The notes beneath the pieces were generated by a model. The model was not told the origin of the DNA and ran no database searches. It worked only from the letters and a program-made list of their open reading frames with translations. Positions 15,210-64,000 of a stretch of DNA of 64,000 bases are shown here, in pieces; within the stretch, counting starts at the first letter, position 1, and each line of letters opens with the position of its first letter. The stretch is from assembly GCA_022819855.1 (NCBI GenBank), contig JAJEGN010000012.1, positions 136,746 through 200,745 of the forward strand, written 5' to 3'. This DNA is from Gammaproteobacteria bacterium (lineage in GTDB: Bacteria > Pseudomonadota > Gammaproteobacteria > Steroidobacterales > Rariloculaceae). The position numbers were made by a program, and so were the translations under genes.

Positions 15210-16583
15210 ATGCCATCCTCCACGGTACTGGCCGTACTCCTGGCCATGACCCTGTTGGCCTTCGTCCTTGGACGGCGGCGATCGCTGGCCCGCTCCGGGG
15301 CAAGGTTTCATTCGCTGCCGACCTATTACGGCAGCTACGTTGCCATCTGGTGCGCCTTTCCGGCTCTTGCCGTTTTCTGCCTTTGGCAACTGGCGGAACC
15401 CGGCTTTATCAGGTCTCAGGTCATTGCTTCCCTCCCGGCGGAAGTCCTTGCGCTGCCCGAGGCAGAACTCGGGCTGCTGTACAACGACATTCGCAATCTC
15501 GTCGAAGGCAATTTCGTTACGGCTGAACCGAGCGAAGAGGTCGTGGCAGCGGCGGCGCGCTATGAGTCGCTGAGTCGCATCAGCGATCTCGGTCTTGCGC
15601 TGACGGTACTGCTCCTCGGGACGGCGACCCTGGGTTGGGCCTTCAGACGCGTCAACCCCGCTTTTCGCGCCCGCAACCGGGTCGAAAAGACAATGCAGCG
15701 GCTGCTGATGGTGGCCTCGACGGTCGCGATCTTCACGACCATCGGCATTTTCTTCTCCGTCCTTTTCGAGGCCTTCCGGTTCTTCCAGCAAGTCTCGCCT
15801 CTGGAGTTCATGTTCGGCTTGAGCTGGAGTCCCCAAACCGCCATTCGTCCGGATCAGATCGGGTCGTCGGGCGCTTTCGGCGCCGTGCCGCTCTTTGCCG
15901 GAACGCTGCTGATTTCCGGTATCGCCATGGTCGTGGCGGTGCCGGTGGGGCTCATGTCGGCGATCTATCTCTCGGAGTATGCGAACCGCCGCGTGCGCGC
16001 CGTGGCCAAACCGATGCTCGAGGTGCTGGCGGGCATACCCACCGTCGTCTACGGCTACTTCGCCGCATTGACGGTCGGGCCGCTTCTGCGGCAGTTCGGC
16101 GAGGGCTTCGGGCTCGACGTTTCGTCGGAGAGCGCGCTCGGCGCGGGACTGGTCATGGGAATCATGATTATCCCCTTCGTTTCTTCGCTTTCCGACGATG
16201 TCATCAACGCTGTCCCGCAAGAGTTGCGGGACGGTTCATTCGGGCTGGGCGCAACCCGATCGGAGACCATTCGGAAGGTGGTCCTGCCGGCCGCGTTGCC
16301 GGGCATCGTGAGCAGCGTGCTATTGGCGGCATCCAGAGCGATCGGAGAGACGATGATCGTGGTCATGGCTGCGGGCCTCGCCGCGAATCTCACGGCCAAT
16401 CCGTTCGAGGCGGTCACGACCGTGACCGTGCAGATCGTGACGTTGCTCGTCGGCGATCAGGAATTCGACAGCGCCAAGACGCTTGCGGCGTTCGCCCTCG
16501 GGCTGTTGCTCTTTCTGACGACGCTGCTGCTGAACATCGTTGCGCTTGGAGTGGTTCGCCGCTATCGGGAACAGTATGAGTAA
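15210..16583 (+). CDS. pstC: Phosphate ABC transporter permease PstC (long form)
   Basis: GIPTVVYGYFA, RDGSFGLGATRSETIRKVVLPAALPGI EAA-loop; extended N-terminal TM/linker region. Confidence 0.93.
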   Translation: MPSSTVLAVLLAMTLLAFVLGRRRSLARSGARFHSLPTYYGSYVAIWCAFPALAVFCLWQLAEPGFIRSQVIASLPAEVLALPEAELGLLYNDIRNLVEGNFVTAEPSEEVVAAAARYESLSRISDLGLALTVLLLGTATLGWAFRRVNPAFRARNRVEKTMQRLLMVASTVAIFTTIGIFFSVLFEAFRFFQQVSPLEFMFGLSWSPQTAIRPDQIGSSGAFGAVPLFAGTLLISGIAMVVAVPVGLMSAIYLSEYANRRVRAVAKPMLEVLAGIPTVVYGYFAALTVGPLLRQFGEGFGLDVSSESALGAGLVMGIMIIPFVSSLSDDVINAVPQELRDGSFGLGATRSETIRKVVLPAALPGIVSSVLLAASRAIGETMIVVMAAGLAANLTANPFEAVTTVTVQIVTLLVGDQEFDSAKTLAAFALGLLLFLTTLLLNIVALGVVRRYREQYE

Positions 16584-17865
16584 CCGCCGGCAAAGCGTGA
16601 GAGATCGGGTGGCCCTCGGCATCGCCCGGCGGTATCGGCGCGAGCGTAACTTTCGCCTGCTGGGACTTGCTGCGGTCCTCGTGGGCCTGAGCTTCCTCGC
16701 ATTCTTCTTTCTCACGCTGATCGGGAATGGCTATACCGCATTCCTGCAGACGCACATTCGTCTGGATGTGGAACTGAGCGCGTCGCTCATCGATCCCGAC
16801 GGAGAACTTGATCCGCAGACCATCGGGCGAGCGAACTATCAGGGATTGATCCAGAACGCCCTGCGCGCGCGGTTTCCCGAGGTCGCGAGCCGCAACGAGC
16901 TCAGGGAACTCTTCGCGCTGGTCAGCCCGGGCGCCGCATTCGAGTTGAGAGACAGCGTCCTCGGCAACCCGGATCTGATCGGCGAGACGATGGACCTTTG
17001 GCTGGTCGCCGATGACGATGTCGACATGCTGATCAAGGGCCACATCGATCGCTCGGCCGAAGAGTCGCAAAGGCGCATCAGCGACCCGCAACTGGCCTGG
17101 ATCGAGGCGCTCGAAGCCGATGGACGCATCGAGCGCCAGTTCAACCACCGCTTCTTCACGGCCGGCGATTCGCGCGACCCGGAAATGTCCGGTATTCGCA
17201 GCGCCATCACGGGCTCCTTTCTGATGCTGCTGGTGACACTGGCCCTGTCCTTCCCGCTCGGGGTCGCGACGGCCATCTACCTGGAGGAGTTTGCGCCGAA
17301 GAACCGCTGGACGGATCTCATCGAAGTCAACATCAACAATCTTGCTGCGGTGCCATCGATCGTCTTCGGCTTGCTGGGGCTGGCACTGTTCATCAATCTT
17401 TTCGGCCTGCCTCGTTCGGCGCCGCTGGTCGGCGGTCTGGTTCTGACCCTGATGACACTGCCGGTCGTCATCATCGCCGGTCGGGCCGCGTTGATGTCGG
17501 TGCCGCCATCGATCCGGGAGGCGGCACTGGGTGTCGGCGCATCGAAGATGCAGATGATTCTTCACCATGTGATGCCGCTGGCCCTGCCGGGGATGCTGAC
17601 AGGCACGATTATCGGGATGGCAAGGGCGCTCGGCGAATCGGCGCCGCTGCTCATGATCGGGATGGTCGCCTTCATCGTCGACGTGCCCGAAAGCCCGCTG
17701 GACCCGGCGACGGCATTGCCCGTGCAGGTCTATCTGTGGGCGGACAGCCCGGAACGCGCCTTCGTGGAGCGTACGTCCGCGGCCATTCTGGTGCTCCTGG
17801 CGTTTCTGTTGGCAATGAATGCCGCCGCGATTCTGTTGCGAAAACGCTTTGAGAGAAATTGGTAG
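16576..17865 (+). CDS. pstA: Phosphate ABC transporter permease PstA with DUF3333-like insertion
   Basis: NINNLAAVPSIVFGLLGLALF, REAALGVGASKMQMILHHVMPLALPGMLTG; large periplasmic insert after TM1; overlaps pstC stop by 8 nt. Confidence 0.93.
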   Translation: MSNRRQSVRDRVALGIARRYRRERNFRLLGLAAVLVGLSFLAFFFLTLIGNGYTAFLQTHIRLDVELSASLIDPDGELDPQTIGRANYQGLIQNALRARFPEVASRNELRELFALVSPGAAFELRDSVLGNPDLIGETMDLWLVADDDVDMLIKGHIDRSAEESQRRISDPQLAWIEALEADGRIERQFNHRFFTAGDSRDPEMSGIRSAITGSFLMLLVTLALSFPLGVATAIYLEEFAPKNRWTDLIEVNINNLAAVPSIVFGLLGLALFINLFGLPRSAPLVGGLVLTLMTLPVVIIAGRAALMSVPPSIREAALGVGASKMQMILHHVMPLALPGMLTGTIIGMARALGESAPLLMIGMVAFIVDVPESPLDPATALPVQVYLWADSPERAFVERTSAAILVLLAFLLAMNAAAILLRKRFERNW

Positions 17866-17937
17866 CGGTTCTCGCAACGCACCCCGATCCACACCGCCGG
17901 CTATCAGCCAGGGCCTCGTAACCCAGGAGTACTCCCA

Positions 17938-19170
17938 ATGAGACTTGCCCGTTTGTCATTGGTCGCCGTTTGCATCCTGTGCATGCCGTTGTTGCACGCG
18001 CAGACCGAACCCCGGGAGGAGATTGCTCAACTCGAGGCTCGGATCGCGTTTCTCGAGGAACGTCTCGCGCGCATCGAGGCGGGAATGAACGGGGAGCCCG
18101 AAACGGAACAGGAGGCTCCGCTTGAGCGGGTAGTCGCCGTGCCGCCCCCCCGCGAAACGGCGCCGTCATGGACCGAAAACCTGACTCTCGACGGCGACCT
18201 GCGTTATCGGCACGAGACGATCAATGACGATACGGTTTCGGTCAGGCACCGGCATCGAATCAGGGCTCGAGCCAACGCGACCGCGATGGTCAATGACCGT
18301 ATGGAAGTGGGTTTTGGACTCTCCACCGGCGGCATCGCCAACGATAGCGGCAATCAGACGCTTGACGAGGGATTCTCCAGGAAGTCCATCGGAGTCGATC
18401 GCGCCTATTTTGACTGGAGCCTGTCGGAGAGTCTTCGTCTGGCGGGCGGCAAGATGTCAAACCCGTTTTTTCGGCCCGGGGGCTACCATTTGCTCTATGA
18501 CAACGACCTGCGGCCGGAGGGGCTGGCTCTCAGGGCGAGTCCCGGCGCCTTCTTCGCCAACGCGGCGGCGTTTTTCGTGGAGGAACGCGGCTCCGGCCCG
18601 GAGACGATGTGGTATGGGCTTCAGGCGGGTTACAGGGGTTCGATCGGGAATGGCGTCTCGTTGACGGCCGGCGCGAGCGTCCATGAACTCAGCCATGCGC
18701 AGGGCCGCCGACCCGTATTTACGCCCTCGAACGGTCAGGGCAATCAGCTCGACGCCAACGGCAACTATCTATACGGGTTCTCCCAGCTTGAAGTGTTCGG
18801 CCAACTCGGTTTCGATGTTGCCGGCGACCCGATGACCGTGTTCGTGGACTACGTGACCAACGACGAGGCAGCGGAATTCGGGGACGGTCTGGCTTTCGGA
18901 ATCGACTACCGCCGCGCCACCGACATGGGAACGTGGAACCTGGCGTACGTCTACCAGGACCTCGAGGCCAACGCGGTCGTGGGCGCGTTCACCGACTCGG
19001 ACTTCGCCGGGGGTACCAGTGACGGCAGCGGCCACACGGTACGCGCGGGATTTTCCTTCCCGGGCGGCTGGAGCCTGGCGCTCAGGTACATCATCGGCGA
19101 CCGCGGCGAGGCCGCGGGCAATCAGCGCGACTACAACAGGCTGCAGGCGGACATCAACTTCGACTATTGA
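17938..19170 (+). CDS. Putative outer-membrane porin
   Basis: Signal peptide, coiled-coil IAQLEARIAFLEERLARIEA, beta-rich body (DGDLRYRHETIND... SFPGGWSLALRYIIGDRG... LQADINFDY), aromatic C-terminus. Confidence 0.8.
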   Translation: MRLARLSLVAVCILCMPLLHAQTEPREEIAQLEARIAFLEERLARIEAGMNGEPETEQEAPLERVVAVPPPRETAPSWTENLTLDGDLRYRHETINDDTVSVRHRHRIRARANATAMVNDRMEVGFGLSTGGIANDSGNQTLDEGFSRKSIGVDRAYFDWSLSESLRLAGGKMSNPFFRPGGYHLLYDNDLRPEGLALRASPGAFFANAAAFFVEERGSGPETMWYGLQAGYRGSIGNGVSLTAGASVHELSHAQGRRPVFTPSNGQGNQLDANGNYLYGFSQLEVFGQLGFDVAGDPMTVFVDYVTNDEAAEFGDGLAFGIDYRRATDMGTWNLAYVYQDLEANAVVGAFTDSDFAGGTSDGSGHTVRAGFSFPGGWSLALRYIIGDRGEAAGNQRDYNRLQADINFDY

Positions 19171-55709: not shown

Positions 55710-56198
55710 TCAGAAGAACAGCATCAGCAACACGATCGCGGCCAGACCTCCGAGGAGAAACGCGCCGACACTGACGACGCCGAGCAGCGTTGCGAAATCC
55801 GCGAGCCGGAAGCCCTGTTCATCCACGACGAACAGCACTTCGGACCGATCGATCTCCCCGTCGACGAATTGCTTGAGCCCATTCTCCGCGCCATGCGCCT
55901 CCTTCACGGCGATCATGGCAACCAGCACGGTCGTGAGCGCGGACGCGAGAATACCGATTGCGAAAAGAGCCAATACAAGCAGAGCGTACCAGTGATAGCC
56001 GGCATCCTGGCCGGCAGGAGTCGCACTGATGAACCCGACGATCAGCGCCGCGCCGCCGGCGTTGCCGAACAACAGCATCCGGGCCGACTGATCGATGAGA
56101 CGGAACATCACGCCGCGCCGGCGGGCGACGACCTTGTACAGTTCCCGCAACCACTCTTCGGCGGTTTCTTCCCGGGAAAACTCGTCTACCTTCTTCAA
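55710..56198 (-). CDS. Small multi-TM membrane protein, unknown function
   Basis: 162 aa; about 4 hydrophobic segments; 3 bp after the preceding gene in the operon. Confidence 0.75.
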   Translation of the reverse strand: MKKVDEFSREETAEEWLRELYKVVARRRGVMFRLIDQSARMLLFGNAGGAALIVGFISATPAGQDAGYHWYALLVLALFAIGILASALTTVLVAMIAVKEAHGAENGLKQFVDGEIDRSEVLFVVDEQGFRLADFATLLGVVSVGAFLLGGLAAIVLLMLFF

Positions 56199-56201
56199 CG
56201 G

Positions 56202-57353
56202 TCACTCTTCCGCAGTCGAAGCGTAGACCCCGAAATCGATGAGCCGAATGAAACCCGTGCCGGCGCTCGATCCCGGTTCGAACGCAAGTTCCCAGTCGTC
56301 GATCAATACCGGTTCCGCGGAACGCGCCGTCGCAACGAAGGCCTCGCGAGTCCAGTCCCCGTCGATGCGTTCGAGCACGGATATCACGAAGCGGCCCAGA
56401 ATGTATCCTTCGAGAGCGACTTCATGGGCTCGCCGCCCTTCCAGCGCATCTTCCGGCAGCATCGCCATCGCACTCCGGAAACTCCTGACCACCTCCAGTT
56501 CAAGATTGTCCACGCTCGGCATGACCTCGGTCATGATGATCCGCTCGCTCGGTTCGTCGATCTCCTGGACCAGTTCATACGACGGCGCGAACGAGAGGCT
56601 CGCCATGGTGTAGGTATGTCCGAGCGAATTCGCCAGGTTGATGATCTCGGCTCCCGCGGCATACGAACCGACGATCAGGATGGCTTCCAGATCCGCCTTT
56701 TCGAGCGAGAACAAGGACGTGTGCACGGCGTGCGAGTTCCGCGTGTAGGCCGATTTCGCGAGTATCGGCATCTCGTGACGGTCGAGAACGGTCTTGTAGT
56801 TGGCGAGCACGGTGCGGCCGAAGGCATCGTCCTGGTAGATGATCCCGAACCGCGTCATGCCAAGTTCGAGCATGTGATCGACCAGTAATTCTATTTCCTG
56901 CAGGTAGCCCGTCCGCAGGTTGAGCACTTCCGGGAACCGTTCGGCGTCGCGCACGAAGTCCGCGCCGGTGAAGGGCCCCACGAAAGGAATCTGTGCGGTG
57001 CGCAGTATCGGCGCGATTCGCCGGGCGGTCGGCGTGCCGACCGCGCCGATGACGGCGAAAACCTCGTTGCCGGCAACGAAGCGCTCGGCGTTGGCCGCCG
57101 CGAGATCGGGCTCGTAGCCGTCATCGAGGCTCAGCAGCTCCAGCGACCTGCCGGCCACGCCGCCTTCGGCATTGCGCTCTTCGAAAGCGGCCAGGAGGCC
57201 CGCCCGGTACTGGATGCCGAGGTTCCGGTTCGGACCGGTGAACACCGCACTTTGGCCGAAAACGACCCGATCGTCTTCCACTCCGGGGTCGGCTCCCCAG
57301 GCGAACGCCGAGGCGGCAACAAGCGCGAGCAGGACCATCCCCCTTCTCATCAT
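56202..57353 (-). CDS. LivK-type ABC transporter substrate-binding protein (orphan)
   Basis: Signal peptide; DDRVVFGQSAVFTGPNRNLGIQYRAGLLAAFEERNAEGGVAGRSLELLSLDDGYEPDLAAANAERFV periplasmic-binding-protein pattern. Confidence 0.9.
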   Translation of the reverse strand: MMRRGMVLLALVAASAFAWGADPGVEDDRVVFGQSAVFTGPNRNLGIQYRAGLLAAFEERNAEGGVAGRSLELLSLDDGYEPDLAAANAERFVAGNEVFAVIGAVGTPTARRIAPILRTAQIPFVGPFTGADFVRDAERFPEVLNLRTGYLQEIELLVDHMLELGMTRFGIIYQDDAFGRTVLANYKTVLDRHEMPILAKSAYTRNSHAVHTSLFSLEKADLEAILIVGSYAAGAEIINLANSLGHTYTMASLSFAPSYELVQEIDEPSERIIMTEVMPSVDNLELEVVRSFRSAMAMLPEDALEGRRAHEVALEGYILGRFVISVLERIDGDWTREAFVATARSAEPVLIDDWELAFEPGSSAGTGFIRLIDFGVYASTAEE

Positions 57354-57362
57354 GGCTCTCTC

Positions 57363-58769
57363 CTACTCGGCCGCCGGAGCGGCGGGCGCTTCGGCCGCGC
57401 CCGGTTCCGGCGGCGGCGTATCGGCTTCGGGCGGCGACGCAGGCATCGCCGATTGTGGCTGAGTGACCGGCGCCTCACCGCTCGCCTCCGCTGCGAGCGT
57501 GTCGACCATCGGCTGCACGACCTGCTGTTGCGCGGCGATGGCGCCGGACGGCTCCACCTCCACATGGGAGAAGATCGACGGTGTTTCGAATATCAACGAC
57601 CGCGGCCGGCCGGCCAACAGGTCGTCACGCTCGGTGACCCGTGAATGGAAGGCGGCCTGCGACAGGAGCCGGTCGGCGATCTCCGTTTCTCCGTGGCGTG
57701 GCGCGGTCTCCGGCGCCGTGAAGGCGGTCAGCGGCCTCGTCGGGGCGCCCGGCGACGCCGGAGCCGCCGCCAGAACGCTCATCGGCGGAACGCCGACGGC
57801 GCCGTCGATCATGTTGACGTCGATGACGGAGTCGGTCGCCGGATTGACGGCGGCGAGGCTCGCTTCGCTGAAAATCGTGCGCATGCGCTGCCAGTACCGG
57901 GTGATGGCCACCTGTTCCGGCTCCAGGCGATACTCCGCAAGGAGCGCGAGGAAGGCCTCGGCGTTGCTCCCGGCCTGCGCCACGCGCTCGTGCGCCTTGG
58001 CCTGGGCCTCCCGAACCACCGCTTCCGCCTGGCCGCGGGATCGGGCGAGCATTCGCTCCGACCTGAGGTTGGCGTTGCTGATGGCCTCGTTGCGCTCGGA
58101 TATCGCGTCGGTGACGTCGCGAAAGGCCGCGCGCGTTTCGTCGATGGGGCGCACATCGACGATGTTGAGCGCCACGAGTTCCACGCCGATATCGCGCTCC
58201 TCGAGCAGCTCGACCACTTCCTCAAACAGGTGATCCTGAATGATGTTGCGGTTCAGACTCACGATCAGATCGATGAAGTTCTGCCCGAGGTCGCTGACGA
58301 TTTCCTCCCGCAGCAACTGGGTCAGGACGACGACGGGATCGGGCGTCGCGAAGAGGAAGTTGCGCAGGTTGTCGATGCGGTACTGAACGGCGACGCTCAC
58401 TTCGAGCAGATTGAGATCCCCCGACAGGACCGTGAACACTTCCTGCCCGTTCCGGCGGCTGGACACCATATGCTCGGCGATGCGGTGCACGGGGCGAACC
58501 CAGGCCCGCTCGATCAGCGGAATGCGATAACGCAGCCCCGGGCCGATGTTCTCCTGAACCACTTGGCCGAACCGCGTGCGCAAGGCCTCCTCTTCCTTCT
58601 TGACCACGTAGAAGCCGCTGAGCGCCAGCCCCACGACCGCGAGCGCCACGGCGGCCCAGGCGATGCGCAGCCGGTGGGCTGCCGCATAGTCGAAAATGGC
58701 GTAAATCGCCCGCGTGCTGGGCGGCAGGTCCTGCTGCCCGTCGTCGTGCCGTTCAGCCGCTTCACTCAT
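57363..58769 (-). CDS. SPFH-domain, HflK-like protein with Pro/Ala-rich C-terminal tail
   Basis: VKKEEEALRTRFGQVVQENIGPGLRYRIPLIERA; NIVDVRPIDETRAAFRDVTDAISERNEAISNAN. Confidence 0.88.
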   Translation of the reverse strand: MSEAAERHDDGQQDLPPSTRAIYAIFDYAAAHRLRIAWAAVALAVVGLALSGFYVVKKEEEALRTRFGQVVQENIGPGLRYRIPLIERAWVRPVHRIAEHMVSSRRNGQEVFTVLSGDLNLLEVSVAVQYRIDNLRNFLFATPDPVVVLTQLLREEIVSDLGQNFIDLIVSLNRNIIQDHLFEEVVELLEERDIGVELVALNIVDVRPIDETRAAFRDVTDAISERNEAISNANLRSERMLARSRGQAEAVVREAQAKAHERVAQAGSNAEAFLALLAEYRLEPEQVAITRYWQRMRTIFSEASLAAVNPATDSVIDVNMIDGAVGVPPMSVLAAAPASPGAPTRPLTAFTAPETAPRHGETEIADRLLSQAAFHSRVTERDDLLAGRPRSLIFETPSIFSHVEVEPSGAIAAQQQVVQPMVDTLAAEASGEAPVTQPQSAMPASPPEADTPPPEPGAAEAPAAPAAE

Positions 58770-59676
58770 CGGCGAATTGTCCGCTTGGCTCAAGCTCCGG
58801 TATCGTCGTGCTGTCGAGATACCGGAACAGTTCATTGTCCGCGGGCAGCATGAGCGTGGTCTTGCTGTCGATGATCAGGTCATAGCTGTCGAGCGCGCGG
58901 ATAAACGTGTAGAAGTCGGGGTCCTCGCGATAGGCCTCTCCGAGCAGCGCCATCGCCTCGGCTTCGGCCTCGCCGAGAATCGTCGTGGCTTCGGCATGGG
59001 CGTCAGCCATGATCCGGTCATGCTCCTCGATGGCCAGCGCCTCGATGCGGATGGCCGCTTCCTCGCCTTCGCTGCGGTACCGGGTGGCGATGCGCGCCCG
59101 CTCGGAGATCATGCGCTGAATCACGCTCGGCCGATTCTCGACCGGCAGCGTGTACTCGACGATGCCGGCACGCAGCAGTTGGATGCCGTAGTTGTCGCGG
59201 GCGATCGGAGCGATTCGCGCGAGGATCTCCCTGCTCGCCTCATCCATGTCCTCGTGCTCGATCCCGAGGCTGATGAAGGCTTCCTGGCTCCTGTTGCTGA
59301 TGACCACGCCGAACGACGACAGGTACAGGTCCTGGAGCTTGGCCAGCGCGCTCTCGTCCGTGCGAATCGCTTCGACGTATCTGATCGGATCGACCACCTG
59401 CCACATCAGGTAGCCGTCCACCCTGACGCTCTTCTGGTCCTCGGTGATCAGTTCGTGGGGCAGGTTCCCCATCGTCTGCACCCGGTAATCCACCTTGTAG
59501 ATCACCGAGATCGGCCGCGGCCACTTCAGATGAAAACCGGGCTCCCGTTCCGGCGGAGAAATCCGGCCAAAGTGCGTCAGCACGCCGCGCTGGGTTTCGT
59601 TGATGATGTAAAAGCTGTCCCAGGCCAGCCAGCCGACCGCAACGGCAACAACCGCGATGATGAATTTTCTCTTCAT
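58762..59676 (-). CDS. SPFH-domain, HflC-like protein
   Basis: FYIINETQRGVLTHFGRISPPEREPGFHLKWPRPISVIYKVDYRVQTM; C-terminal YREDPDFYTFIRALDSYDLIIDSKTTLMLPADNELFRYL typical of HflC. Confidence 0.93.
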   Translation of the reverse strand: MKRKFIIAVVAVAVGWLAWDSFYIINETQRGVLTHFGRISPPEREPGFHLKWPRPISVIYKVDYRVQTMGNLPHELITEDQKSVRVDGYLMWQVVDPIRYVEAIRTDESALAKLQDLYLSSFGVVISNRSQEAFISLGIEHEDMDEASREILARIAPIARDNYGIQLLRAGIVEYTLPVENRPSVIQRMISERARIATRYRSEGEEAAIRIEALAIEEHDRIMADAHAEATTILGEAEAEAMALLGEAYREDPDFYTFIRALDSYDLIIDSKTTLMLPADNELFRYLDSTTIPELEPSGQFADE

Positions 59677-59679
59677 GGA

Positions 59680-62034
59680 CTATTCTCCATGGCCGTTAGC
59701 CGCGTCAGCGTTGCCCGCCGATGTCCTGTTCTGCCATAACGCCACTTTATCGAGGCTGTCTTCGTTCGGCACGATGATCTTCGCGTTGCCCGACAGTGCG
59801 CTTTCAAGTTTCTCTCGCCACAACATCGTTCTCAGCACATCGGGCGCCGTACGCACCGTCGCGGAAATGGTCGTCAGCGCGTCGGATTGCGCGCCGGCGG
59901 CGATCTCCCTGGCGTAGGCATCGCCTTGCGCCTGGCGCACCTCGTAAAAGGCGTTGCCATGGGCCTGCGGCACCAGTCGGCCCATGAAGCTCTGCGCGTT
60001 GACGATGACCCGTTCCCGGTCCTCCTGGGCGCTCGAGACATCGCGGAAGGCGGCCACCGTTTCTGCCGCGGGACGGATGTTCCGGAGGCTCACCTTGACG
60101 ATATCGACCGCCTGGAGCACCTCTTCGTGCACGGTATCCGCGTCCGGAGGTTCGCTGTGTCCACCGTACGGGAATCCCTCGGCAATGTAGTCTTCGAGCG
60201 CCGCTCTCTGCGTCACGAGCAGCTCCTCGAGCCTGCGGGCGCCGACGAACTGGCGCAGCCGATCCAGCACGACGCCTCGCAGAACCGCCTCGGCGTCGTT
60301 GGTCTGGTAGTGGTACAGGTAGGGGTCGCTGACCCGGAACTGCACATCGAGACCGATCAGCGCAACGTTGAGGTCGCCGGATACGAATTCGCTGTTCACC
60401 GCGGTTCGGAAGGACTTGACTTCACGCACCGGCCACAAGTCGGCCTGCACGATGGGCGGCGGGCCGAGCCAGTAGAGCCCGGGCGGCAGATCCCGCCACA
60501 CGACCCTGCCGAACACCCGACCGTAGCCGACGGACTGCGGCGGCACGACGGTGAACCCGCTCAGGATGACGACGACCAGGATCGCGGTGTACAGCATCCT
60601 GCCCATCGGCGTCGCCGGGGAGACTGCGCCGGCCAGCGGGCGGCCGCGGGTCAGGCGGTTCCAGGCGCGCCGCCAGGGCCGGGTCAAGGGACCGACGTTG
60701 CTGACGAGTTCCTGGTAGCCGCTCTTGAGCGCTCCGGCCCGGAACCGCCAGATGATGAGCGCCAGCAGGCCGAGCGCGCCGCCGTATTGCAGCGCCAGGA
60801 TGGCCGGCGACTCGGAGGCGCCGAGATTGACGGCGATCGAGATGCCGCTCAACAGCAGCAGCGAGTCGACGAGGATACCGAGCACGACGGTGACCGCAAT
60901 GACCGAACCGACGTACACCGAAGCGAACCTCGTGCCGAACTGGGCCAGCATGATCGCTATGGTTCCGGTGTTGGTGGCAGGACCCGTCATCAGGAAGATC
61001 AGCGCCGCTCCCGGGCTGAACCCCTTCGCCACGAGCGCCGCGGCGATCGGCGTACTGGCGGAGGCGCAAATGTAAAGCGGTATCCCGACCAGCACCATCA
61101 CCGGGTAGGAGATCCAGCGCGCATACTCGTTGGCCATCATCTCGCTGGGAATGGCGAGATAGAGCACGCCGCCGAGCGCGATGCCGACCAGGAGCGCGAA
61201 AAGAATGTCGTCGGCGATCTCGACGAAGCCGTAGCGCAGGACATGCCGCACCACGGACCTGAGATCGGGTTCCGATCCGCCCGCGGAATCGGGTTCGGCG
61301 TCACGTGAAGCCGCTGCCGCCTTTCGTTCGGTGTAATAGAAATCGGGCCTGAGCCAGGTGGCGGCCTTCCAGCGGCCAAGCGCGGCGGCGCAGCGCCTGA
61401 ACCAGTTGGCGGTCATCTGCTTCAGTTGAGAGAAGCTGACGTAACAGTCCTCGGAACCCGGAAACAGGTTTTTGTGGCTGTGGTCATGGTCATGGTCATG
61501 GCCGTGGTGATGGTGATGGTCATGGCCGTGCTCATGACCATGATCGTGGCCGTTGTCCGCGACCTGGGCGGCGCTGTCATCGCGGCCGTCGCGAATCATT
61601 CCGATACAGAAAATGCCAGCAAAGACAGCCGTGATGAAGCTGATGACGGGCCTGACTATGGCCACGATCGGGCCGAAGAAGGCGTTCGTGACCAGAATGG
61701 AGTCTGCGCCGGTCTCAGGAGCCGTGATCAGGAACGACATGCACGACGACCGCGAGGCGCCCTTCCTGCGCATTTCCGCGACCACCGGCACCACCGAGCA
61801 ACTGCAAAGCGGGATCGGCACACCAACCGCCGCCGCGGTGGTCACCGACTTGAGGCTTTCGTGTCTGAGCCAGCGCAGGACCGCCTGCCGGGAGATGAAC
61901 ACGTGGATGAGCCCGGAGAGAAACAGGCCGAGCAGCAGCATCGGCGCCAGCAGCAGGAACGACTGCCACAGGAAATCGAAAAATGCGACCGCGGCCTCGA
62001 GCAGGCGGTTTGTCAGCGTCGTCCCCCCCGTCAT
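59680..62034 (-). CDS. Fusion protein: PF03773-type permease (SO_0444/Cu-Zn efflux-like) with His-rich loop plus C-terminal SPFH/HflK-like domain
   Basis: GVPIPLCSCSVVPVVAEMRRKGAS, MTGPATNTGTI permease motifs; GHDHGHEHGHDHHHHHGHDHDHDHSH; C-terminal VVPPQSVGYGRVFGRVVWRDLPPGLYWLGPPPI...NIRPAAETVAAFRDVSSAQEDRERVIVNAQSF. Confidence 0.9.
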   Translation of the reverse strand: MTGGTTLTNRLLEAAVAFFDFLWQSFLLLAPMLLLGLFLSGLIHVFISRQAVLRWLRHESLKSVTTAAAVGVPIPLCSCSVVPVVAEMRRKGASRSSCMSFLITAPETGADSILVTNAFFGPIVAIVRPVISFITAVFAGIFCIGMIRDGRDDSAAQVADNGHDHGHEHGHDHHHHHGHDHDHDHSHKNLFPGSEDCYVSFSQLKQMTANWFRRCAAALGRWKAATWLRPDFYYTERKAAAASRDAEPDSAGGSEPDLRSVVRHVLRYGFVEIADDILFALLVGIALGGVLYLAIPSEMMANEYARWISYPVMVLVGIPLYICASASTPIAAALVAKGFSPGAALIFLMTGPATNTGTIAIMLAQFGTRFASVYVGSVIAVTVVLGILVDSLLLLSGISIAVNLGASESPAILALQYGGALGLLALIIWRFRAGALKSGYQELVSNVGPLTRPWRRAWNRLTRGRPLAGAVSPATPMGRMLYTAILVVVILSGFTVVPPQSVGYGRVFGRVVWRDLPPGLYWLGPPPIVQADLWPVREVKSFRTAVNSEFVSGDLNVALIGLDVQFRVSDPYLYHYQTNDAEAVLRGVVLDRLRQFVGARRLEELLVTQRAALEDYIAEGFPYGGHSEPPDADTVHEEVLQAVDIVKVSLRNIRPAAETVAAFRDVSSAQEDRERVIVNAQSFMGRLVPQAHGNAFYEVRQAQGDAYAREIAAGAQSDALTTISATVRTAPDVLRTMLWREKLESALSGNAKIIVPNEDSLDKVALWQNRTSAGNADAANGHGE

Positions 62035-62198: not shown

Positions 62199-63140
62199 TC
62201 ATGGCGCGGAAACTGTGCCGTTGCTGCCTTTCAGACAACGGGCCAGGTTGTCGGCATTGGCTTGCATCATCACGAAATAGCTGTTGGCGGCCACCGAATC
62301 TTCGGCGCCGATCGGGTCGAAGGTCGCACGCCTCAGCGAGCCTTCGGACCCCAACGTCTCGACCAGGGCCGACGTGAATTGAGGCTCGGTGACGTAGCAC
62401 ACGACGCCAGCGGCACGCATTCGCTGCCTCAACGCGCGCACGCTGCCGGCCCCGGGCTGCCGGTCGGGATCGAGCGTGATCGCGCCGACCGCATGCACAC
62501 CGAACGCGCTTTCGAAATAGTGCATCGAGTCGTGCATTGCGACGAACGGGACGCTGCCGGCGCCCGCAAGCTGCGCTTCGATGCCGGCGGTCAAGGAGTC
62601 GATTCTTGCAAGCGTCGCCGCACCGTTCGCGGCGTAGATGGCGCTCCGCTCGGGATCGACCTCAGCGAGCGCCCGCGCGATCGCGCCGACCATCGCCTTC
62701 GCGTTTCCGGGCTCGAGCCAGATATGCGGGTCGGGGGCCGCGCCATCGTCCTCGTGATCGTGCCCGCTGTCCCAGAGGTTGCTCCTGCGCGCCGGATGCA
62801 GATCCAGCCCGCCCGCCTCGAGCAGCGTCACGACGCGTGCGTCCGCGCTCAGGTTGCGTATCGGACCGGCCATGAAGGTTTCAAGGGCCTCACCGACCCA
62901 GAGCACGACATCGGCGCGCGCGAGCGATCGCGCCTCCGAGGGTCGCATCTGGTAGACATGCGGCGAGCCGTAACCGCTGACGATCAGGGCGGGAGTGCCG
63001 ACATCGCCCATTACGCCGGAGGCCAGGGAGTGGATCGGCCGGATACTGGCCACCACATTCGGCGGATCGGCCGCGAATGCGGCAAGGCCGGGAGCCGCGG
63101 CCAACAGCGCCAGGGCAACCGTTCGTTGCGGCCCGTTCAT
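62199..63140 (-). CDS. znuA: Zinc ABC transporter substrate-binding protein
   Basis: VVASIRPIHSLASGVMG, HVYQMRPSEARSLARADVVLWVG, His/Asp-rich loop GHDHEDDGAAPDPHIWLEPGNA. Confidence 0.92.
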   Translation of the reverse strand: MNGPQRTVALALLAAAPGLAAFAADPPNVVASIRPIHSLASGVMGDVGTPALIVSGYGSPHVYQMRPSEARSLARADVVLWVGEALETFMAGPIRNLSADARVVTLLEAGGLDLHPARRSNLWDSGHDHEDDGAAPDPHIWLEPGNAKAMVGAIARALAEVDPERSAIYAANGAATLARIDSLTAGIEAQLAGAGSVPFVAMHDSMHYFESAFGVHAVGAITLDPDRQPGAGSVRALRQRMRAAGVVCYVTEPQFTSALVETLGSEGSLRRATFDPIGAEDSVAANSYFVMMQANADNLARCLKGSNGTVSAP

Positions 63141-63318: not shown

Positions 63319-64000
63319 ATGGACACGAGACCTGCAGCCAGCGAACCGGCGCAACCACCACCCGTGCACGGCGACGGACTGTTGCGCGGTAAGGGAGTCT
63401 GCCTGGCCTATAACGGCCGCACCATCCTCGACAATGTCGATATCGGTGTAGCCGGCGGCGAGGTCGTAACCATCGTCGGGCTGAACGGCTGCGGAAAGTC
63501 CACGCTCGTACGCGCGCTGCTCGGTCTCACACGAATCGATGCAGGGACCGTCTGGCATCGCCCGGGACTCAGGATCGGCTATACGCCGCAGCGCATGAAG
63601 ATGGATCCGATCATGCCGATGACCGTGGCGCGTTACCTGACACTCGGCGGACGCCACGATATCGGCACGCTGTCCCGGGCGCTCGGCGAGGTGGAACTCG
63701 ACGGTGCGCTGGACGCGCAGATGTCGGAGCTGTCGGGCGGCGAGTTCAACCGCATTGCGCTGGCTCGCGCCCTGCTGCGCGATCCGGACATCCTGGTTCT
63801 CGACGAGCCGCTGAGCAGCGTGGACTTCGCGGGTCAGGTCAAGCTCTACGAACTGATAGAGACGATTCGCGAGCGGCGCGGCTGCGGCGTCCTGATGGTT
63901 TCCCACGATCTGCACCTGGTCATGTCGACGACGGATACCGTGGTGTGCCTGAACCATCACGTATGCTGTTCCGGACGACCCACTCAAGTGCTGAACCACC
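63319..64000 (+). CDS. znuC: Zinc ABC transporter ATP-binding protein, truncated by window end (absent from supplied ORF track)
   Basis: Translated by eye: MDTRPAASEPAQPPPVHGDGLLRGKGVCLAYNGRTILDNVDI...GLNGCGKSTL (Walker A), LSGGEFNRIALARALLRDPDILVLDEP (signature/Walker B), SHDLHLVM. Confidence 0.92.
   Translation, partial: MDTRPAASEPAQPPPVHGDGLLRGKGVCLAYNGRTILDNVDIGVAGGEVVTIVGLNGCGKSTLVRALLGLTRIDAGTVWHRPGLRIGYTPQRMKMDPIMPMTVARYLTLGGRHDIGTLSRALGEVELDGALDAQMSELSGGEFNRIALARALLRDPDILVLDEPLSSVDFAGQVKLYELIETIRERRGCGVLMVSHDLHLVMSTTDTVVCLNHHVCCSGRPTQVLNH

Follow-up and report, generated by a model that had tools for sequence, protein, structure and literature searches.

In the 64,000-nt stretch of gammaproteobacterial DNA analysed here (hereafter the window; assembly GCA_022819855.1, contig JAJEGN010000012.1), five minus-strand open reading frames (ORFs) form an operon whose lead gene encodes a Cu/Zn efflux-type permease fused to an HflK-like SPFH protein (F). 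The genes that follow encode an HflC-like protein (C), a separate HflK-like protein (K), a LivK-type periplasmic binding protein (SBP) and a small membrane protein (TM), giving the order F-C-K-SBP-TM (Table 1). We consider that this operon may well encode, with roughly even chances, a dedicated metal-export microdomain, i.e. a periplasmic dome of the HflK/HflC type with a metal exporter built into one of its subunits. The spread of the operon, the probable sponge niche of its carriers and the linkage to czcCBA and ZIP genes emerged from data beyond the window.

A permease fused to an HflK-like protein

PF03773 covers residues 25–389 of F and PF01145 residues 508–681, in agreement with an earlier reading of the window made from the sequence only, which had described the lead gene as a PF03773-type permease joined to an HflK-like SPFH domain. 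The permease half scores 327.9 bits against NF033936, the model of SO_0444 Cu/Zn efflux proteins (equivalog cut-off 300), and is closer to SO_0444 than to other PF03773 models. The second half reaches 118.6 bits with the hflK model TIGR01933, below its cut-off of 159.4. Each of the 30 uninterrupted F proteins, that of the window included, is recognised by the SO_0444 model as well as by that of HflK. The CSC motif and the His/Asp-rich loop that had been noticed in the sequence were located at residues 77–79 and at about residues 162–187. When 14 F proteins were aligned with 27 stand-alone permeases, PxPxCSC and TGPxTN were invariant throughout and C197 and C323 were also kept, whereas several His residues of the loop are invariant among the F proteins and missing from the stand-alone relatives. 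Moreover, the F permeases form their own clade, apart from these relatives.

A profile built from the 30 F proteins aligns over residues 475–746 to residues 83–347 of the HflK chain (E = 1.4e-26). Judged from this alignment, the transmembrane helix and the dome-forming region of HflK are retained in F, and the cytoplasmic N-terminus of HflK is swapped for the permease. The linker ahead of the HflK-type helix contains 10 K/R and 1 D/E, a charge that suggests a cytoplasmic location of the junction. The His/Asp-rich loop may lie on the cytoplasmic side too, according to the helix order in an AlphaFold2 (AF2) model of low confidence. A Foldseek search with this model ranked HflK/HflC first and also returned stomatin bound to aquaporin-1.

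The HflC-like and HflK-like partners

C exceeds the cut-off of the hflC model TIGR01932 (160.3 bits for a cut-off of 134.4) and K falls just below that of TIGR01933 (143.7 bits for 159.4). The two proteins align to the HflC and HflK chains of the solved cage with E values of 7.3e-42 and 1.6e-40, respectively, so that the second and third genes are of the types initially proposed. The succession of transmembrane helix, SPFH domain and coiled coil is present according to hydropathy and to profile alignments with the HflK and HflC chains; its periplasmic sidedness is deduced from linker charge only.

In an SPFH tree including housekeeping homologues, F, K and C each form one clade (support of 100, 99 and 99, respectively, in the Shimodaira–Hasegawa-like approximate likelihood ratio test, SH-aLRT). 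C groups with HflC, and F and K are sisters (SH-aLRT 91) on the HflK side, in what is a quick tree with long inner branches. This sister relationship makes it probable that F derives from a duplicated K-like gene that was joined to a permease. At the column of E. coli HflK R193, F keeps an Arg that K lacks in 14 of 14 sequences; the reported FtsH contact nearby is Arg191 in the numbering of the paper, which does not match, and the residue comparison is a weak one.

The host genome contains nine Band_7 matches, the basis of SPFH assignment for the genes that follow, whose names were read from ORF starts and gene order (L044–L047). A housekeeping hflX-hflK-hflC-purA locus is present on contig C16 (L044), and another hflKC-like pair lies outside it on contig C4 (L045, 7752–9763). 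The operon is therefore not the only hflKC of this genome, and it is distinct from housekeeping HflKC as had been anticipated. Two stomatin-like genes, each adjoining an apparent NfeD gene, are found on C20 (L046, L047).

The binding protein and the small membrane protein

The SBP belongs to Peripla_BP_6 (PF13458, E = 2.3e-41), and its nearest solved chain is 4kv7. LivH, LivM, LivG and LivF were found neither among the five genes nor among the listed neighbours, the rest of the genome not having been searched; within that scope, the protein is a LivK type devoid of its LivHMGF partners, as first described. The last protein had been taken for a four-helix membrane protein. This must be corrected, since it contains three hydrophobic segments and three long predicted helices (AF2 predicted local distance difference test score, pLDDT, of 84.6). 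It is conserved in 28 loci, has no Pfam or NCBIfam match, and its model gave no significant fold match in the PDB.

Distribution and inheritance of the five-gene unit

A search of 59 relatives identified full-length fusions in two other genomes, one from the family of the host and one from another family of its order (80% and 63% identity). With the small membrane protein as query, 5 carriers were detected among 398 genomes of the order, and all 5 possess the five genes in order. Among 387 genomes of the class, all other occurrences of the permease half were stand-alone proteins, almost always in open frames of ∼340–430 aa. Scanning the GTDB species genomes with the SPFH half yielded 33 loci, four of them in the relatives already found; as two short peptide patterns were used, this number is a lower bound. 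All loci uncut by contig ends have F-C-K-SBP-TM in the same order and on the same strand. In 29 of the 33 loci (30 with the window), F is read in a single open frame; L104 and L105 are cut by contig ends, and the F frame is interrupted in L100 and L116. The frame breaks in these two loci, which in L116 affect C as well, correspond to sequencing errors or decayed copies. Since both the fusion and the gene order recur in 33 other loci, chance can be excluded.

The carriers are metagenome-assembled genomes (MAGs) labelled Gammaproteobacteria, Rhodobacteraceae, Latescibacterota, Gemmatimonadota, Nitrospinota, Acidobacteriota (Terriglobia, Bryobacterales) and Opitutia. Binning error is unlikely for L093, L098 and L101, which lie on chromosome-level contigs (4.3, 3.1 and 5.1 Mb), and for L110, on a contig of 2.9 Mb. 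On short contigs, labels may be wrong; L100, for example, resembles L099 and L106. The occurrence is patchy, with 5 of 398 genomes in the order, 1 of 399 in a phylum-wide spread and 6 of 17 in the phylum of the L110 host. Across 25 loci, in which F shares 52% identity or more, the distances between pairs of sequences are correlated among the five proteins (r = 0.84–0.96), partly owing to shared descent of the hosts. Because the gene tree mixes phyla, the simplest reading of these sequences is that the five genes have been transferred jointly between hosts. A plasmid origin was rejected, since none of the plasmid records covered 80% of the fusion and both plasmid loci that were inspected proved unrelated. 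The operon was not detected in the viral contigs searched.

Two variations were observed among the loci. In L102, L103, L107, L108 and L109 (Nitrospinota and related MAGs), F has an additional C-terminal tail of ∼130 residues rich in Lys, Gly and His; in L088, L091, L094 and L119, F and C are separated by 160–320 bp, instead of the tight junctions seen elsewhere.

Most carriers are apparent sponge symbionts, and a sponge or reef-holobiont niche is likely, though not proven. Names of the 'jk18x..bins' type are those used for MAGs from Ircinia sponges (PMC9531527), a series that the 'p16x' names also fit, and 'RHO' and 'APA' would correspond to Rhopaloeides odorabile and Aplysina aerophoba (PMC8163846). 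A sponge source is thus indicated for 20 of the 33 loci, by MAG name only, and the source of the other 13 could not be confirmed; 'Plut' may stand for the coral Porites lutea. No isolate genome was present among the matches of the GTDB scan.

Metal-transport genes near the operon

In the genome of the window, znuA lies ahead of F, and znuC, znuB and czcC-czcB-czcA are arranged divergently beyond it. In L097 and L098, czcCBA is located directly upstream on the same strand and a ZIP gene directly downstream. Overall, ZnuABC, CusA/CzcA, ZIP or P1B ATPase genes are found nearby in 29 of the 32 loci with usable flanks (L105 and L112 were left out as too short), which bears out the metal link suggested initially. 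Such a transporter was not found near L090, where another type of resistance-nodulation-division (RND) gene is present instead, or near L115 and L118. Whole-genome searches of six genomes revealed only 0–3 CusA/CzcA and 0–2 ZIP genes in each; in five of these genomes, at least one such gene is found within ∼10 kb of the operon.

Two further features were noted in these neighbourhoods. In L110, the gene immediately after ZIP encodes a heavy-metal P1B ATPase that carries an HMA domain (15948–18176). A membrane protein also recurs beside czcCBA near the operon (L086, 5345–6796; L043, 14946–15914; L084, 18046–19008; L098, 2067–3029), and its L086 and L043 copies have no Pfam or NCBIfam match.

The ORF coordinates (Table 1) reproduce the five-gene minus-strand layout read at first, with junctions of +3 (F/C), −8 (C/K), +9 (K/SBP) and +3 bp (SBP/TM), as well as the positions given for znuA and the divergent znuC. 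The longest ORF of K reaches 58835; the start at 58769 was chosen as common to homologues.

Table 1. Coordinates of the operon and adjoining genes in the window
Feature	Position	Strand	Description
F	59680..62034	-	SO_0444-type Cu/Zn permease fused to HflK-like SPFH protein, 784 aa
F, permease half	60750..62034	-	Residues 1-428; CSC, C197, C323
F, His/Asp-rich loop	61474..61551	-	Residues 162-187 (sequence)
F, HflK-like half	59680..60612	-	Transmembrane helix (480-498), SPFH domain, coiled coil
C	58762..59676	-	HflC-like SPFH protein, 304 aa
K	57363..58769	-	HflK-like SPFH protein, 468 aa; 8-bp overlap with C
SBP	56202..57353	-	LivK-type periplasmic binding protein
TM (small membrane protein)	55710..56198	-	162 aa, three helices, matches no known family
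znuA	62199..63140	-	PF01297, E 6.8e-61; 164 bp upstream of F
znuC	63319..64000	+	Divergent; continues beyond window end

Proposed mechanism and alternatives

FtsH is surrounded by a cage of 24 alternating HflK and HflC subunits (PMC12048511), and stomatin forms an enclosure around aquaporin-1 and urea transporter-B (PMC12407830). The assignment of SO_0444 to Zn/Cu efflux comes from mutant fitness under Zn and Cu stress and from complementation (PMC3219624); in Nitratiruptor, Cd and Cu induce a homologue (PMC10092412). In the mechanism that we propose, F, C and K would co-assemble into a dome of the HflK/HflC type over the inner membrane, on its periplasmic face. F would occupy an HflK position, with the Cu/Zn exporter replacing the cytoplasmic N-terminus, and the piece of membrane at or below the dome would thus contain several exporters. 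The cytoplasmic His-rich loop would gather Zn or Cu, and the CSC-motif permease would release it at the dome, into the periplasmic space. At this point, the binding protein of the operon and, in many genomes, a CusA/CzcA-type pump would take it over, and adjacent ZIP or ZnuABC genes would balance uptake.

The earlier reading, of an SPFH cage around a metal permease with a putative periplasmic sensor, is thus supported in part, and the parts of the present scheme differ in strength. A role in metal homeostasis is highly probable, and the assembly of F, C and K in a single dome is probable; export seems somewhat favoured over import. The transfer of the metal to Czc or to the SBP is a tentative suggestion. 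Similarly, we offer as a speculation that the dome, with its exporter-bearing subunits, might be a private periplasmic compartment from which an RND pump or the binding protein removes the pumped metal, and might have spread as a five-gene unit across phyla of sponge-associated bacteria.

Several observations weigh against a metal-export microdomain. ZnuABC is an uptake system and the SBP belongs to an amino-acid-binding family, neither of which is predicted by an export device. L115 and L118 have no metal neighbour, and a whole-genome search found no ZIP or CusA/CzcA gene in the L118 genome, indicating that these two partners are not obligatory. A crude pattern search for a Zur box performed no better than chance. 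Finally, the AF2 model of F is poor (pLDDT 55.5) and was used for helix order only.

The closeness of C and K to FtsH modulators raises the alternative of a specialised FtsH adaptor. The F/C/K dome would then enclose FtsH, and the permease would sense metal or recruit metal transporters, thereby controlling their degradation. HflKC is indeed known both to promote and to slow FtsH proteolysis of membrane proteins (PMC12048511), and F has an Arg near the reported FtsH contact, with the numbering uncertain. However, K is without this Arg in all 14 sequences, ftsH was not found in any operon neighbourhood, and the transport motifs of the permease are fully conserved, beyond the needs of a mere recruiter. 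We therefore regard this alternative as unlikely.

Metal uptake or scavenging, in which the unit would import zinc together with ZnuABC or ZIP and the SBP would capture a periplasmic metal chelate, appears quite unlikely. The permease scores above the cut-off of an efflux family, efflux RND genes adjoin many loci and the SBP has no ABC partner in the operon, even though znuA heads the operon in the window, in its nearest relative and in five Nitrospinota-type loci, and ZIP is the next gene in most other loci. It is also rather improbable that the permease carries a non-metal substrate (an organic thiol, an arsenical or an amino-acid conjugate) recognised by the amino-acid-type SBP. PF03773 does include organoarsenical exporters and the SBP is of the LivK type, but the proximity of the permease to SO_0444 among PF03773 models, the His-rich loop of F and the metal-gene linkage in 29 of 32 loci all argue for a metal. 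As for an assembly artefact, although the source is a draft genome of 22 contigs, the fusion was found in 30 loci from independent assemblies, including the 3.1, 4.3 and 5.1 Mb contigs, and a mis-assembly was rejected as having next to no probability.

Significance and comparison with known systems

What bacterial SPFH domes do for the membrane that they enclose is an open question, the evidence being mostly on FtsH. A transporter welded to a dome subunit and kept across phyla means that the cargo is known in advance, so that whether an SPFH dome houses and controls a transporter can be tested directly in bacteria, alongside the stomatin–aquaporin structures. The operon suggests that metals are exported by way of a private compartment of the membrane. 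It also hints that metal handling is a trait transmitted among bacteria with an apparent association with sponges, and its last gene adds a family of membrane proteins for which no relative is known. Apart from the last protein, every family involved is already known. No description of this protein, of the fusion or of the unit of five genes was found in the open-access literature searched, and within that scope the claim of an undescribed system holds, although subscription journals could contain one that escaped this search. In a 2009 survey of prokaryotic SPFH proteins (PMC2636767), the words 'permease' and 'fused' are absent.

The NfeD-SPFH operons of the stomatin/flotillin type (e.g. QmcA-YbbJ) also give a bacterial SPFH protein a membrane partner of its own. 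However, NfeD is not among the five genes described here, the SPFH proteins are of the HflK/C type and the partner is a fused transporter. The human erythrocyte stomatin domes with aquaporin-1 or urea transporter-B (PMC12407830) likewise associate an SPFH protein with a transporter; these belong to the stomatin family and enclose an unfused transporter from the cytoplasmic side, whereas the dome predicted here is HflK-type and its link to the transporter is covalent. As a member of the SO_0444 family (PF03773, NF033936), F scores above the cut-off and keeps CSC, C197, C323 and TGPxTN. It differs from the stand-alone members of ∼340–430 aa in adding a His-rich loop and an SPFH cage subunit, and in forming its own clade. 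The closest likeness of the SPFH proteins is to HflK/HflC (SPFH3, modulators of FtsH), to which C and K align over the transmembrane helix, the SPFH domain and the coiled coil, and which the second half of F resembles on the HflK side. Here, however, two HflK-type proteins, one of them fused to a permease, accompany one HflC-type protein, C is without the long insert of E. coli HflC, and the operon, separate from housekeeping hflKC, adds a binding protein and a new membrane protein.

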